From Aldrovandia affinis (lineage: Eukaryota > Chordata > Actinopteri > Notacanthiformes > Halosauridae), in NCBI GenBank assembly GCA_029706075.1, contig JAINUG010000136.1, positions 588,501 through 652,500 on the forward strand: a stretch of 64,000 bases of DNA, given 5' to 3'. The first letter of the stretch is position 1, and every line of letters begins with the position of its first letter. Below the pieces are notes generated by a model. It searched no databases and had not been told where the DNA came from. It saw nothing but the letters and a program-made list of their open reading frames with translations. This document shows positions 1 through 35,505 of this stretch, one piece after another. The position numbers were made by a program, and so were the translations under genes.

Positions 1-3000
1 AGCTAGCTAGCTACTTGCTAGCAAGCTCAATTGTGAAAAATAAAGGTTGTTATAACTTTGCTAGTTACAACAAACAAATCATGGTAAAGCATTAACATAA
101 AATATGGATACTGTAACACGTGTATATGCTAGCCTAAAGCAGTACAGTGTGGTTTTAAAAGTCAATATTTATAGCTCAATACAAAAAGATGCAAAATCCA
201 TGGGAGCCGCCATTTTAGCACAGCAGACGACGCTTTGCAAGAGAAGAGAAAAAAGCCGGCTGGTCAATAAGTGAGCCCATGGGCCACCAGGAGGAACAAT
301 CGTTTGCATTTGGTGCTTCTCTTCTTCAGACAGAATAATATTGTTTATTATTCTCCACATAGAACATCAGATAATTTTATCCTGTCGTTAAATCCCCCCA
401 GAAGTAAAGCAGTGCCACTCCATGGGAGCCGCCATCTTGTAACAACCAAACAAACCTCCGCCAGTCTAAAAAATGGCGGCGCTAAATGATGTAAAAATCA
501 AAAGGGGGTTGAACCCTTGATTGTTGCGTTTATGTAGCTAGATATGTACAAACCGCAATACACTTACTACCAAATGTATAACAGAATACCCCTTAACTAA
601 ATGAAAATATGTCTGTGAATTTCAAATGTACTACAAATAAGCTAGTGTGTTAGTTCCTAGTTAGCTGGCTAGCTAGTTAGCGAGTTGCCGCAGAAGGCGA
701 TTTTCATGCCTCTCTGGGAGTCGCCATCTTGTCAAACAACCCAAACACAATCCCCTCCTGTCAAGTAGCAGCGAGTGCGCTCCCTGATTAATTCCGACTC
801 ACACACACACACACACTACTACACAATTTAATGAGAAATCATCTGTATATTTAATGTTTGAAATTCAATTTCCATTTCAACTATGTTAGCTATCAGTTGT
901 ATATGAATAGTAGCTAGTCAGCTAACGGGATAGCTAGATTGATAGCTAGTTAGCAGGCTTACTGAATCTATGTTAACATGCAAACGGAAAACAAACAATT
1001 AGTAACTTAAGAGCAATTATATGAGAATACTCGCAATGCATTAAACGCATTAGAAAACGTTTAAACAGTATCGATGTTCAAAATACTTTCTATTCATGCT
1101 CCTTCAGTGGAAGCAGCCATCTTGTTGACTAAACAACTGCTAGCTACCTTGCTAGCCATCTTCCCTCAAGAAAAATGGCGGATGTAGCTAGCTAACATTA
1201 GCTATAACAAAAAGATGCGAAATAGCCGAGCGCATAATTTTCATAATGTAAAATACTTACACCTTTTGAGTTATCTTGCGCAAAACGTCTTGATGATGAG
1301 ACTTTGAGAAGTTAACCCCGGTGATTTCGGTTTGTTAAGAAGTAGCTACCTCCTCTCATGCCTTTCAGGAAGCCGCCATCTTCTTGACAACCAAAAAACA
1401 AGATGCTGCTGCCACCTCCGTTGCCTTGGCCCTCAACATAAATGGCGGGCAGCTCCCTAAAACACAACCCAAATGTTAATAGCTAGCGAGGCAGACCGTG
1501 GCCTCTGTCATTCATTCAACTAGGATACACTGACTCTTATAAAATAAATAATGTTACGTGCTTTTCTATTTAAATGGGAGAACGGTAATTGTTGGAACAG
1601 TTCCCTTTATTTAAAGTACTTAAAAGAAGATGGCGACGGTTATACTTTAGGCTATCATAATACAGCTAAAGCTAGGTTGCTAATATCGTTTGTAGTTAGT
1701 TAAAACGTCGGTTGAACATCGATTTCTTTTTACATAAATATGTCACGTTTGCATTTTATTTTCCTTCAGGGGTTCAACCAAAATACATAAACAGCTACAT
1801 TCTTGAATGCAGCAATGAAAAAGTAGGTAGAAATGGTGAGCTAGTTTGAACCCTTTGTAGAAGCCGCCATTTTCGGGCAACCCCTCCCCGCATCCACCTG
1901 ATTTAGACAGAATGAAATGGCGGTTCGATTCAAGTAGAATACCGTCATAAATACAGCATGTTAGGTCAACGCAACATTAATAGTATGCGCACACACACAC
2001 AATGGCCAAGCGGCTTACATAGGCTACAAGGGTAATGACTTCAGTCTACTTGTAGAAACCATGAATTTACTACCCGTTAAGCTCTAACCAATTAAAGCCC
2101 AGTGGCTTCAAGTGACCAGAAAATATACCACCCTTTCAAAATGATAGGATTGTAAAATAAACTGCATTTTATGTATGCTATTATAAGGAACTTGGATTTA
2201 AACCACAAACCAGCTACTACAAGCACTTGAATTGAAAAGCACAAACTTGGCTAATAATGATTGGCCCACCATAAACTAAAAATTGGTTTAAAAAACCCCA
2301 AAATAATAATTACACAGCATACAGCCAGCATTCTACATTATTGAATTGGGACAATGCACATTAATCAACATATCAGCTTTACACATCAATGTAAATGTGC
2401 CGGAATTAGCACAATTGCTACATTTCATTAATGTATTTAAAAATTGAATATTTGCATTGATTCATTTGTAGTTTTGTGTTGATTTATAGAGAAAACCAGA
2501 CAATTGATTAGTGAAATAGAGTTGCCAGGAATAGCAGGATGGAATATGCCTCTTACTCTGACACAAAGCATCATCAGGAAATTGTACTTTCCATTTAAGT
2601 ACCTCCTTGTGTTACAGGGGTTGTCATGAACATGCACGTTAAAGAATATTTAAGAAAAACATTGAAAATAATGATGTCCTCGTCAACTTCCCACAAAACT
2701 GGCTCTTTGCATCTGACCGAATCATCCCCCTATATCTGATTGGCTAAAGCCTACCTATTTTGATTGGAAGACAATTTAGTTATGTTGGCATACCTGGTTA
2801 AATAAAAAGGACACAAAAAAAACATTGTGTATGGTATGATTGACTGGAACCCCAAAGAGTAGACATTGGACTACTAAAATAATTAAAGTAAAAGTTGAAA
2901 TTACAAAAATGTTTGACACTGAATGTCCTCAATGTATTCCTGCTGTGCACCTACAGATACATAGCCATTGAAGTCATCTGGAATTTATGCCCACAACCCC

Positions 3001-3400
3001 CAGTCTCTGTACCTGACCTTGCTACACAACTAGAGCCTCTTGTGATGCATTATTAAAAGCATCATGTATTCACAGTAACAAAGGTTTCCCACCTTACCTT
3101 ACATTGAAAGTTATAGCCCTACATTATTTAACACAAAAGTTACAACACTAAAACATCTTTGAGTCCAAAATGTAAAGTTTCAACACCAAGCCCTTGAATC
3201 CCTGCACGTTTTCATTTTAGCAGGGTTTTTACTTAAACTCTGTTTTTACTTAGATTTTGTAAATGAACACATCGGCAACCTTTTCCATTTAAATAGTGCA
3301 CCGCTATTTAACATGAAGCCTAAGAGCACATTTACGCTTTACAAAGAGTAATTCGATTCCTTAGTAGGAGACCAACAATAATTTCGCCTAAGTAGGCTAC
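1..3400. other. non-coding, GCTAGC-rich DNA with YY1-like motif array
   Basis: No recognisable exon on either strand. The first 1.7 kb is dense in TAGCTAGC-type words and carries eight exact CCGCCAT/ATGGCGG motifs between 207 and 1923 plus near matches. The same TAGC-rich texture occurs just inside irak1 intron 1, so this may be the 5' intronic zone of a neighbouring gene. From 2 to 3.4 kb nothing stands out. Confidence 0.6.
207..1923. promoter_or_regulatory. cluster of YY1-like motifs
   Basis: Exact copies: 207-213, 429-435, 1373-1379 and 1864-1870 (CCGCCAT) and 473-479, 1175-1181, 1442-1448 and 1917-1923 (ATGGCGG). Near matches at 720, 1113, 1152 and 1630. Most fit the YY1 consensus AAnATGGCGGC. 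They sit in repeated modules with a reverse motif followed 40-70 bp later by a forward one. Confidence 0.6.
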
Positions 3401-3922
3401 AACAGTGCAGTTTAATTCCTGCTAAAAGGGGGGGGCGACAACTTTTTTTTCTTCAATCAATTTAAGTCAGCTTACGTCAACTTGTTTCCGGTCGCAGCCG
3501 TAGCCTACCCTAAAGGCCAAACAAGATTTGTTTAAAGTCTTCAGCCGACGAGAAGCGTTTGGAACGTCTACAGAGGAATTTCTGTTAGGTGTGAGCTACT
3601 GAGTTTGGAATCTCTGCTGATGGTCATTGTAGTCTCCGAGATTCAATAGGCCTATGTCAAATCTTGTTGTTATGGGAATTGTGCAATGTATAGTTTCTAC
3701 TAAGTGACATTCTGTGTTTTTATTGAAAACGACATTCTTGTCTGCTGTCGCAGTTTTGAACTAAACTTTAGTTTTAAACTAAACTGGGCCTAACACCAAT
3801 AACAGCTTCCATGTCAGTATGCTTGAATGAAGTTTACACCTGCCTTTTCCAGGCGTTAAATAATGAACACAATCTTTTAATTGTTACCAACCTTGATAAA
3901 TCACATCGAATGGCTGATATAT

Positions 3923-4271
3923 ACTGATAAGTGCCAAAATAAAGTAAGTACCCACATAAAGTGTCTTAATAGGGTGTTGGGCCACCACGTGCTGTAAAAA
4001 CCGCTTCAATACTGGAACTCTATTGGAGGGATGCAACACCATTCATTTACAATAAATTACATCATTTTGTGGTTTGTTGACGGTGGCTGAAAATGCTGTC
4101 TCAGGCGACAATTCAGAATCTACCACAAGTGTTCAATTAAGTTAAGATCTGGTGACTGAGACATCCATGGCATACTGTTTACATCGTTTTCATGCACATC
4201 AAACCATTCAGTGACCACTCGTGCCCTGTGCATTTATTGGCGTTTACCTTGCCCTCTAAGGGGTTGAGGTG
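3923..4271 (-). mobile_element. Tc1/mariner remnant
   Basis: Minus-strand piece of the same Tc1 family as at 12023: it starts with a decayed terminal repeat (GTGCCAAAATAAAG) followed by TAAAGTGTCTTAATAGGGTG and ends near CTCTAAGGGGTTGAGG. The other terminal repeat is missing. Confidence 0.75.
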
Positions 4272-4591
4272 AGCAGACTGCTGAATTATAAAATCACTTT
4301 CACAAGTTTAATATCACTCAAAATGTGTTGCATTTTTTGTGTATGCATCAGTTTGACATGTTTTTTGCAGGACTACATGAAGGTACTGCAAATTTTGTTT
4401 GTAATAATTCTGTTAACTTAAACCACAATTTAGAACATTTCTTCCCCTGACAATCTTTGAATTTGTAAAACACATCCTGTCAGTCACAATCCAAAAAATG
4501 TCTACTGTTGCTTGGAATTTAACTATGGAAAATATCTAATTTGAATCACTAATCTCATTTACTTTTGTTTTAATATAAATGTATTTCAAAT

Positions 4592-4905
4592 TTTTCTCCC
4601 AATTGAGTTGCCAATTATGCCCTCTATTTATCTCAATTCCCCCTCCCCCACGAGTCCGCCGCCCGTTCTCCGGGTCGAGACACTATTTCCGGGCCGATTT
4701 TATCTGCCTCTTCCGAGACGGAATTCTACCACGGACGCCTTTTTTCTGCTCCTCGACGGACTCGTGCCGGTTCACCCTCCCCCCTCCCCCGGAGGCGGAC
4801 CAGGGCCGGTCTGGTAGAGACGCGGGTTTCGAACCGCGTCCCTGACAGGCAGCGCACACCACACCGGACCAGCCAAAGTGTGGTGCGTTAGACCGCCTAA
4901 TCTCA
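4592..4905 (-). mobile_element. tRNA-derived SINE (family B)
   Basis: Read on the minus strand it begins with a tRNA-like head (GCGGTCTAACGCACC, B-box GGTTCGAAACC), then a GC-rich body, ending near GGGAGAAAAAT. It is the same family as the plus-strand copy at 26003. Confidence 0.75.
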
Positions 4906-6459
4906 TTTTGTACTATAGACTTGGACATCGTGCATAAACATGGAGCCAAAGGAGTTTGCTCAGCAAATTGTTATTACAATGGATAGCTGACCTTTGCCTA
5001 CCATGACCTTTTCCCTCAAGGTAGTTCTAACTTTAAGGCATACATACCAAAAGTGGATTTCTTTACAGTTCAATACCTGCATGGTATGCAGCCATATCAC
5101 CCATTTTATTTTAAGGAAAGAGAAAATGGGGGTTGCAAGCAGAAATATAACGAGACACCTTAGTGCAGTGAAATTAAACCTGATGTCTTTTCAAATACAA
5201 CAGTAACACAGAGGTGCAAACAAAAAAACATTTTATCATCGTAAATTGTACATTTTCGAACCGTTTTAAAGTAATAATCAAACCAAGCTTTCAATAAATT
5301 AAAAAAGACACTGAAGAAAAAAAAGATTGCTTATCTTATATAGTTACTTTGCAATGGCATACGCACATGGGCCATTAAAAAATATCACTCTCAGTAGTAT
5401 TTAAGTGACCCATAAATCACTTGATTTGGGTTGTGCATTCATACTTCTCTCACAACCTGTAACACACTCTTCTCTTTGGAAGCAAGCCAGAATGTTTTTG
5501 CTGAGTTTTGGCAGCATATCATCATTGACATGGCCAGGTAATCAAACCCTCAATGTGAGTTGTATCCCAGTTGATCCCAAGAGTTGTATCATGAGAGTGA
5601 AGTCTTTAGGATGAAGGTCCTTCGAGAAACTGCCTCCTTGTTTGTTAACATTAACCTTATGACAGTATTGTCAGTTTCTGCAAACAATTGTATAAAAACA
5701 TGGTTGTATAAAAACAGGTTGGTAGCACTTTTTTGGTAGAAGCTTTAAGGGCTTTGCTGATAGTTTTCAGATTTCAGTTCAGATTTGAACCCTTGGTCCC
5801 TGCCACGGTCATTGTACAGCTGCATAAATAGACAATACTTTAGTTTGGAGGATTTTGACATGCATTTCAACCAGCCTTTCCAAGGAATTAATCAATACGA
5901 CTGCAAAGATCTGGATATGAAATTCATTGTTTTAATAAAGGACACACACATTGCGTACTTATGTCTTCCAAATGACAGGCTGTGTGAACACTGAACTGGG
6001 CTTTTTTTTTTTTTGCATGAACAAGCACTTTCCATTTCACCATCTCTAAATTGCTCAAGTGAGAGACCTCGCTGTACAAGATCAGATATCACTTTGTTCA
6101 TATTAACAGGTCAACTGATATTTGGTAGACATACTTCTGAAAATAAAAGTCAAAATCCTCCAAGCATAAAAAATACTGTATGAAAACGGAAAAGGGTGAA
6201 AAAGCACATCGGAAAAGCAAATAAATAGTTTAAAGAGTACCATCAAGAGTACGTAAGAGTACCACCTTTGCCTCAAATACTTGCAGTGTCCATCATACCA
6301 CACTCATGTTATGCTAAAAAGTTTGTCCATGGTGATGTTGGTATAAAATGACATGAAGACACTAACAGGTGCAGTACGGAACATGTGATAGTGGTTTCGA
6401 AGAAGCTGTACCGTATTTTTTGACAACTATAAAACATTGACATAAATTGAACTGCGGTG
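4906..6459. other. intergenic, nothing recognised
   Basis: AT-rich DNA beyond the irak1 3' end. No exon, repeat family or RNA gene was recognised in either strand. Confidence 0.5.
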
Positions 6460-6678
6460 TGTGAAATGATAACGCCCACAACTTTATTAGGGCTTGTAAA
6501 CAACCATATGGTTTTGAGAACTTTGATTTAAGGGTTTGTGTGCAAACTGTTTCCCCCAATTTAAAAATAACATTTCTACACATTTTCTCTCACTTAATGT
6601 GCTCTTGTTACAGAACACTTCATGTATGTAAAGTGGACATTTTGTTTTATGTATTTGTTTGTGGTTAATTGGATGTGT
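6460..6678 (-). other. irak1: irak1 3' UTR, candidate
   Basis: The transcript would continue past the TGA at 6679. The first AATAAA on the minus strand lies at 6483-6488, giving a UTR of about 200 nt if used. No other landmark fixes the end, and later sites are possible. Confidence 0.45.
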
Positions 6679-29987
<23,309 letters not shown>

Positions 29988-30170
29988 GTTCAAGCGAGCA
30001 ACATGTGATTTTTCTATCCAGTGGTTTTTTTTGTTGTTGCAGAAGTCCAATGAATACTGCTAGGAGTTATTTTTTACATATTATGATGTGTAGAACCATC
30101 GCCTCAAATTACTTGGAACACGTTATGTGCAGAACCATCACCTCGGATTACTTGACAACGCCATCTGTAT
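29988..30170 (-). promoter_or_regulatory. irak1: irak1 5' UTR / proximal promoter with a 39-bp tandem repeat
   Basis: Sequence directly upstream of the irak1 start. Two imperfect copies of a 39-bp unit (GAACCATC at 30093 and 30132) lie here in tandem. No TATA box is obvious. The region is placed only by its position before exon 1. Confidence 0.4.
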
Positions 30171-32120: not shown

Positions 32121-32121
32121 C

Positions 32122-32268
32122 ACTCTGTGGCTCAGTTGGTAGAGCACAGCGTTGGCAACGCTTAGGTTGTGGGTTCAATCCCCACTGGGGCCACATATAC
32201 TGAAAAATGTATGCATTCACTACTGTAAGTCGCTTTGGATAAAAGCGTCTGCTAAATGGCGTATATTA
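32122..32268 (+). mobile_element. SINE (family C)
   Basis: Same as the copy at 11847: CTGTGGCTCAGTTGGTAGAG, GGGTTCAATCCCC and GTAAGTCGCTTTGGATAAAA. Confidence 0.85.
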
Positions 32269-34384: not shown

Positions 34385-35505
34385 GAACACCCCCGATTAA
34401 AAAGTTTTAGAACACCCCCATTTTCCAGTTTTTACAGAAATTTAAGCAGTTCAAGTCCAGTGAATAACCTAAGAGATGAGATGTTTATCAGTTGTTACTT
34501 AGAAGTTGTTACTTGTTACTTCCTTATCTTTTAAGGAAACCATTTTATTCATTATTTTGTTCCGTGTATTATTTACTACCGGTCAAAAGTAAAAAATTTT
34601 GGCAGTGAGCCCGACCATCACACTTCCTCCTCCATGTTTGACAGTTGGTGTCACACACTGAGGAACCATATTTTCGCCTACTCGACGGCCTACAAAAACC
34701 TTTCAAAATTTCAAGATTTCGATTAATCGGTCCATAAGACCTTTTTCCAGTCTTCAGTAGTCCACTGGTGGTGCTTCATAACATACGCCATTTAGCAGAC
34801 GCTTTTATCCAAAGCGACTTACAGAAGTGAATGCATACATTTTCAGTAGTGGCCCCAGTGGGGATTGAACCCACAACCTAAGCGTTGCCAACGCTGTGCT
34901 CTACCAACTGAGCCACAGAGAACCACCTCATAGCCCAGGCAAGCCTCTTTTTCTTATTTTGCTATCTTAGCAATGGCTTTCTTACTGCCACTCGACCTGT
35001 CAAACCTGGAGCTCGAAGTCTTCTCTTCAGTTTAAATTGAGTTCAAATTTACTTCGACCAGTGTTAAGCTGTGCTTGAAGCTGTTGTCCTGTGAACCGCC
35101 TATCCTGCAAGCTGTTGACTCTCATAAACTTGTCTTCTGATTTTGTTGTGGCTTTGGGTCTGCCAGACCTCTTCCTGTCAGTTTCCAAGTGACTTTAGAT
35201 GGTGTAGGAAACTACTCACTGGCAAAAAATGTACCTTATTTTTCAGTTTTGGTAACCTAAACTTTTTTATTTTTAACCTCTGGCAGTTTACCGCTTACCT
35301 TTGTACCATTTTAGGCTATTCACTGGACTTGAACTGTTTAAATTTCTGTAAAAACTGGAAAATTGGGGTGTTCTAAAACCTTTGACCGGTAGTGTATAAT
35401 ACACGGAACAAAATAATGAATAAAATCCTTAAAATATAAGGAATTAACAAGTAACAACTTCTAAGTAACAACTGATAAACATCCAATCTCTCAGCTAGGT
35501 GAGAG
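34385..35505 (-). mobile_element. Tc1/mariner element, rearranged, with a nested SINE
   Basis: 34600-35300 is minus-strand Tc1 transposase DNA (CTCCATGTTTGACAGTTGGT, CTACTCGACGGCCTACAAAA, GCTTGAAGCTGTTGTCCTGT). The right end 35310-35395 is a terminal repeat ending TTTGACCGGTAGTGTA. The left end is disordered: a terminal-repeat piece (34385-34470) precedes a 118-bp sequence (34477-34596) that is an inverted copy of the right flank (35385-35505). A family C SINE (34784-34925) is inserted. Confidence 0.75.
34784..34925 (-). mobile_element. SINE (family C) inside the Tc1 element
   Basis: Plus-strand order: ATTTAGCAGACGCTTTTATC, AAAGCGACTTACAG, GGGGATTGAACCCACAACCT, CTACCAACTGAGCCACAGAG. It splits GGTGGTGCTTCATA from CTCATAGCCCAGGCAAGCC of the transposase DNA. 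Confidence 0.85.

Follow-up and report, generated by a model that had tools for sequence, protein, structure and literature searches.

The 64-kb window (the whole stretch of 64,000 bp of Aldrovandia affinis DNA analysed here) begins with an array of eleven YY1-like sites, predicted from their motif and spread over positions 206–1924, with the first coding exon of hcfc1 directly downstream of it on the minus strand. The array is a homotypic YY1 site cluster, as it holds far more consensus sites than chance would supply, and it is very probably part of the promoter region of hcfc1. The explanation preferred here, to which a probability of about 70% is given, is that it is a YY1-bound cis-regulatory array that tunes the dosage of hcfc1; we infer both the binding of YY1 and the direction of its effect. 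That YY1 is the bound protein is suggested by the motif together with mammalian data.

The neighbouring gene was sought in 40 kb to the left of the window, taken from the 1.22-Gb assembly. The first coding exon of hcfc1 is present there on the minus strand, with 92% identity over 52 residues to human HCF-1, and the next three ungapped stretches are 90–98% identical to the human protein. By Pfam, exon 1 matches profile positions 1–50 of Kelch_HCF (PF13854) with an E-value of 9.6e-22, which for this short piece alone is below the curated cut-off, while the next exons, in another frame, match the profile with an E-value of 2e-49, above the cut-off, one of them at profile positions 50–103. The left flank and the window are contiguous, as shown by a stretch that spans the join unbroken, and the hcfc1 ATG precedes window base 1 by 104 bp (the A is at 9897 of the left-flank piece L009, minus strand). 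The array is thus 309–2027 bp upstream of the start codon or, given an unspliced 5'UTR, at c.-309 to c.-2027. This position supports one guess of the first-pass annotation, in which the motifs serve a neighbouring gene, not visible in the window, as a promoter-proximal control element. Directly before the ATG, a pyrimidine-rich stretch that ends in AG was read by eye as a candidate 3' splice site; if it is used, the array might be situated in a 5'UTR intron. One further strict YY1-like site occurs outside the window, in hcfc1 intron 1 (window position -862; L009 9138–9148).

Several other identities for the region were considered and set aside. An HCF-1 exon within the window itself gave no convincing match, the exon being just outside. 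The autoregulatory cluster of YY1 gene intron 1 does not apply, as the adjacent gene is hcfc1. Coding sequence was looked for in the six frames of nt 1–9000 by Pfam, which returned two weak matches below the cut-off, both outside the array, and the Rfam matches in the window (seven UnaL2 and three tRNA) include none in the array. Elsewhere in the window, tRNA-like heads stand beside UnaL2 LINE tails (11852–11989, 32121–32265, 34782–34923). These are probably tRNA-derived SINEs, and a tRNA-Ala called by ARAGORN at 34849–34923 is probably one of them.

Table 1. Predicted YY1-like sites and the CpG-kept stretch upstream of hcfc1 exon 1, in window coordinates
Feature	Positions	Strand	Sequence	Basis or remarks
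CpG-kept, GCTAG-rich stretch around hcfc1 exon 1, upstream part	1..1930			27.5 CpG/kb, o/e 0.71; continues left to about -1250
YY1-like site, unpaired, closest to hcfc1 ATG	206..216	-	AAAATGGCGGC	matrix and strict rule
YY1-like site, pair 1 left arm	428..438	-	AAGATGGCGGC	zero mismatches; matrix and strict rule
YY1-like site, pair 1 right arm (42 bp)	470..480	+	AAAATGGCGGC	matrix and strict rule
YY1-like site, unpaired	720..730	-	AAGATGGCGAC	matrix and strict rule
YY1-like site, pair 2 left arm	1113..1123	-	AAGATGGCTGC	matrix and strict rule
Weak YY1-like site within pair 2, outside the eleven	1152..1162	-	AAGATGGCTAG	matrix only
YY1-like site, pair 2 right arm (59 bp)	1172..1182	+	AAAATGGCGGA	matrix and strict rule
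YY1-like site, pair 3 left arm	1372..1382	-	AAGATGGCGGC	zero mismatches; matrix and strict rule
YY1-like site, pair 3 right arm (67 bp)	1439..1449	+	TAAATGGCGGG	three mismatches, heptamer exact; outside strict set
YY1-like site, unpaired	1627..1637	+	AAGATGGCGAC	matrix and strict rule
YY1-like site, pair 4 left arm	1863..1873	-	AAAATGGCGGC	matrix and strict rule
YY1-like site, pair 4 right arm (51 bp), array's outer end	1914..1924	+	GAAATGGCGGT	three mismatches, heptamer exact; outside strict set

The sites are listed in Table 1. The window contains ten exact CCGCCAT/ATGGCGG heptamers, eight of which lie at 207–1923, and first-order Markov simulation of the array stretch gave a mean of 0.11 with a maximum of 2 in 5000 runs, which bears out the original observation of eight clustered heptamers where fewer than one was expected. 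What stands out is how the heptamers cluster, as their total over the window exceeds expectation only mildly (shuffle mean 4.0, with 3 of 100 shuffles reaching ten). Under a strict rule (AAGATGGCGGC with at most two mismatches and ATGGC intact), the window has 15 sites, nine of them inside the array, and 1750-bp stretches sampled beyond position 2000 never contained more than one. Simulated means for strict sites were 0.08–0.12 (orders 1 and 2) against the nine observed; a third-order model that had the array's own sequence as its training set gave a mean of 0.74 and a maximum of 5. The sites were also scored with a hand-made matrix, built on the YY1 consensus rather than drawn from a database, and its scan, near matches included, gives eleven good sites and one weak site (1152). 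At thresholds 9 and 10 it finds 12 matches in the array, while the remaining 62 kb yield 34 at threshold 9 and 22 at threshold 10; at threshold 12 there are nine in the array and six outside it. The weaker sites of the array are those at 1152, 1439 and 1914. ATGGC is on the minus strand in six of the eleven sites and on the plus strand in five, and the CpG is kept in ten of them.

Genome-wide, the pattern CCGCCATCTTGT has 248 matches in 1.22 Gb, compared to 36 for the reversed pattern, and taken alone it is not specific. One hundred of these 248 places were listed, and 48 of the 99 other than the array served as control loci. These loci carry at most three strict sites per 1750 bp (32 have one, 13 have two and 3 have three) against nine in the array; with the looser core GCCATnTT the controls have up to five and the array ten. 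The control loci are not wholly independent, as six share a dispersed repeat and two others (L047 and L050) are alike around the site. The dispersed repeat, in which CCGCCATCTTGT is embedded in a shared context (L005, L014, L027, L039, L044 and L048 of the 48), has members that align to L027 over 72–349 bp at 85–90% identity. Pairs of sites were also searched for. A tight pattern, CCGCCATNTT and AAAATGGCGG separated by 15–45 bp, is found once in 1.22 Gb, at pair 1 of the array, a rarity that is partly by design because the pattern was written to fit that pair. A loose pair pattern matches 112 places, compared to 11 for the reversed pattern; the 50 listed of these 112, counted by eye, consist of 30 members of one repeat family, three matches in the array and 17 single cases, and among these 50 listed matches only the array has several (three) within 2 kb. 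The repeat family carries CCGCCAT and ATGGCGG about 63 bp apart (for example C304:1177–1253, C325:4055–4131 and C398:1787–1863).

The existence of such repeats, one shared by six of the 48 control loci and another making up 30 of the 50 listed loose-pair matches, raises the question of whether the array could itself be a transposon, or a dispersed repeat, with YY1 sites inside it. This is hardly credible, as a DNA search of the 1.22-Gb genome with the whole array (very common words being skipped) returned no second copy, the one match being the array itself, and positions 1–2000 match nothing elsewhere in the window. The two tests proposed in the first-pass annotation, enrichment over simulated sequence and copies of a dispersed repeat across the genome, thus both favour the array, the first of them strongly.

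CpG content was followed along the stretch that holds the array (Table 1). Density is 44–57 CpG per kb from -1250 to 0 and 27.5 per kb from 0 to 1930, and at 1930–3200, beyond the outer end of the array, it falls about fourfold to 7.1 per kb with an observed/expected ratio (o/e) of 0.23. From -1250 to 1930 the o/e is 0.71–1.05 at a GC content of 0.39–0.51, compared to 0.23 beyond the array, and the GC content is near constant across the region except in the exon. This might fit the non-methylated islands of zebrafish, which are described as having a high CpG o/e with a GC content like that of their surroundings (PMC3583005). The o/e of positions 1–2000 is 0.73 (0.67 without the heptamers), compared to a median of 0.56 for 500-bp windows; it is not unusual among the 2-kb bins of the window, six others of which reach 0.73–0.86, and it dips to 0.44–0.53 at 1–450. 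The CpG evidence is rated as moderate.

The drop from 27.5 to 7.1 CpG per kb at the array's outer edge, and the retention of the CpG in ten of the eleven sites, could also be read as signs of a mainly architectural role. The array would then be a boundary or loop anchor, keeping methylated DNA towards irak1 apart from an unmethylated promoter domain of hcfc1. This is one locus with one edge of a sort that promoters are expected to have anyway, and a second CpG block follows at 3200–3750, so that we consider a mainly architectural function improbable. The second block, which has 32.7 CpG per kb and is reached past the CpG-poor gap, contains single matches to ETS (3491), CRE-like (3479) and ACTACA (3633) words, all on the minus strand, and is possibly where hcfc1, or a different transcript, starts.

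The word GCTAG is also concentrated here: positions 1–2000 have 27 occurrences, and the rest of the window averages 1.8 per 2 kb. Next in richness comes the bin at 28–30 kb, where the first exon of irak1 lies as judged by eye. The first-exon regions of irak1 (window 28750–30000) and hcfc1 (L009 9300–10000) share an abundance of CpG and of words of the GCTAG/GCTAACGTTAGC type, and this combination may be a sequence mark of fish promoters.

The four pairs described at first are real (428/470, 1113/1172, 1372/1439 and 1863/1914, spaced by 42, 59, 67 and 51 bp), and in all four the sites are opposed, a minus-strand site being followed to the right by its plus-strand partner. The chance that at least four of six minus-strand sites have a plus-strand partner 38–75 bp to the right is about 0.0004, for a range chosen after seeing the data. 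Opposed sites form inverted repeats, and the paired motifs could in principle be RNA hairpins in a transcript. The arms, though, differ from each other at 1–3 positions without compensating changes, each departing independently from a common consensus; arms that do not vary together argue for protein sites and against a hairpin, which, from this comparison of the arms alone, is a most improbable explanation.

The 20 bp to the left of the six minus-strand sites have a mean identity of 47% compared to 26.5% at random places (none of 3000 reached it), while the 25 bp to their right are 32.5% identical, a value reached by 1.7% of random places, and the flanks of the plus-strand sites are 31–32% identical, which is weakly significant or not significant. 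CATG, which the first-pass annotation gives for its modules, is indeed found within 30 bp to the left of five of the six minus-strand sites, but at differing distances. CAACC occurs within 25 bp to the right of four of the six, and the minus-strand sites share, to a differing degree, GGGA/GGAA/AGAA beside GCCGCCATCTTGT-like sequence. Two pairs of modules can be aligned to each other: nt 413–466 with nt 707–762, around the site at 720 (79% over 58 bp), and nt 704–750 with nt 1356–1401 (79% over 47 bp). No further self-alignments were found within the array. Two module pairs that are still at 79% suggest an old local duplication, and the proposal in the first-pass annotation of an old tandem duplication holds in part for how the array arose.

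In a further reading, the array would be what is left of old tandem duplications, local in extent, of a module of about 50 bp around one functional YY1 site, the extra copies being without function. Both alignments and the alike left flanks of the six minus-strand sites are what such a history would leave behind. The sites are better kept than their flanks and spacers, however; the flanks of the plus-strand sites are little alike (0.31–0.32 compared to 0.265), and in three of the four pairs the arms differ at 2–3 positions while the left arm is within one position of the consensus. A functionless relic is thus a very improbable account of the array.

Taking the array to be a functional set of YY1 sites, the proposed mechanism is that YY1 would occupy the sites within an unmethylated promoter domain, and that occupancy of many sites would give a graded hcfc1 output that follows the level of YY1. 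Most likely it would act as a brake with activating potential, although the evidence does not decide the sign. YY1 and HCF-1 are both found in BAP1 complexes (PMC7822832), and a ternary complex is named in the title of a paper cited in the same source. As HCF-1 is a partner of YY1 in the BAP1 complex, the array would couple the dosage of a cofactor to that of its factor.

Data from mammals speak on both sides of the question of sign. Mouse Hcfc1 is reported to have the strongest promoter YY1 peak among X-linked genes, and upon degradation of YY1 its expression goes up from the active X and down from the inactive X, while among direct YY1 targets, taken as a group, a fall is more frequent than a rise when YY1 is removed (PMC11094009). 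The opposite responses of the two X chromosomes, together with targets that more often fall, indicate that the sign of the YY1 effect depends on context. At the Peg3 array, half the dose of YY1 raises expression, so that YY1 is described as a dosage repressor there (PMC4361396), and a damping role at fish hcfc1 would be favoured by this array and by the result for the mouse active X. In intron 1 of the YY1 gene there are five YY1 sites in both orientations within about 100 bp, which the promoter requires for its activity and through which feedback acts (PMC2743690); this cluster and the behaviour of the mouse YY1 targets as a group would favour an activating role.

A rival reading, with an activating role, is that the array is a core-promoter platform, in which the YY1 sites are initiator-like, each sets a start, and YY1 is mainly an activator; if each site sets a start, hcfc1 would have many dispersed starts. 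Six of the eleven sites are in the sense of hcfc1 transcription, the sites of the YY1 gene are needed for activity of its promoter (PMC2743690), and the direct mouse targets more often fall on removal of YY1 (PMC11094009). As the remaining five sites are opposite in sense, and as mouse Hcfc1 rises from the active X when YY1 is lost (PMC11094009), a platform of this kind is judged to be unlikely. A more far-reaching version of the preferred explanation, dosage tuning by bound YY1, is that hcfc1 carries a long-range YY1 dosage sensor, whose opposed pairs would count YY1 (perhaps as YY1-HCF-1-BAP1 complexes) and would close a feedback loop on the gene of the cofactor. This would be an ancient vertebrate circuit, with the human element at c.-970 as one that remains. 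We regard this extension as tentative and rather doubtful.

Within the genome, a search with the hcfc1 exon-1 protein gave two matches, hcfc1 itself and one hcfc2-like gene, the second HCF-type gene, which we take to be hcfc2. There are no strict sites in 3.1 kb around the first exon of the hcfc2-like gene. A surviving hcfc1 duplicate would have been useful for comparison, and the hcfc2-like gene is the sole other match at E-values up to 0.01.

Both irak1 and mecp2 are in the window on the minus strand: kinase pieces at 15.5–15.8 and 22.1–22.3 kb have IRAK1 as their best solved relative and are also recognised as kinase by Pfam, and a stretch at 52.4–52.8 kb is 66% identical over 151 columns to human MeCP2. 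The association of the array with irak1 that was drawn at first is positional only, the nearest recognised kinase exon being at about 15.4 kb. In the gar, the gene order is HCFC1-TMEM187-IRAK1-MECP2-SWS2-LWS (PMC5686071) and, with irak1 and mecp2 in the window, either hcfc1 or tmem187 was to be expected as the left neighbour. Although the gar has tmem187 between HCFC1 and IRAK1, Pfam gave no match to it in window positions 1–18002, and there was no Pfam match to an opsin or other gene at 54–63 kb.

The main worth of the array is the link that it makes between fish, mouse and a human disease site. HCFC1 dosage matters in humans, where the promoter variant c.-970T>C, in a YY1-binding element, is listed as pathogenic and as a cause of X-linked intellectual disability (PMC11078748). 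Were the fish gene under the control of a YY1 array, the connection between YY1 and HCF-1 would predate the mammalian X chromosome, and a fish promoter, in which sites, spacing and orientation can be changed singly, would serve as a model for the human regulatory site. In that case hcfc1 would also be the second gene of the YY1 circuit, after YY1, with a YY1 cluster beside its first exon.

No report of a YY1 array upstream of a fish hcfc1 gene was found in the open-licence literature searched, which is not proof of absence. The array joins a known class, the homotypic YY1 clusters beside first exons, in a paired layout. Like the intron-1 cluster of the YY1 gene, it consists of homotypic sites of either orientation close to the first exon of a YY1-circuit gene. 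The spacers of that cluster are described as not conserved, and the cluster differs in having five sites in about 100 bp that are reported to be conserved across vertebrates including fish (PMC2743690), while the present array has eleven sites in 1.7 kb upstream of the hcfc1 start codon. The imprinting control region of Peg3 likewise has multiple YY1 sites near a promoter and first exon, but these are in tandem, within intron 1, and subject to allele-specific methylation in mammals (PMC4361396), compared to the opposed pairs upstream of the fish gene. The mouse Hcfc1 YY1 peak and the human c.-970T>C variant involve the same gene, on its promoter side, and the same factor as is predicted here (PMC11094009, PMC11078748).
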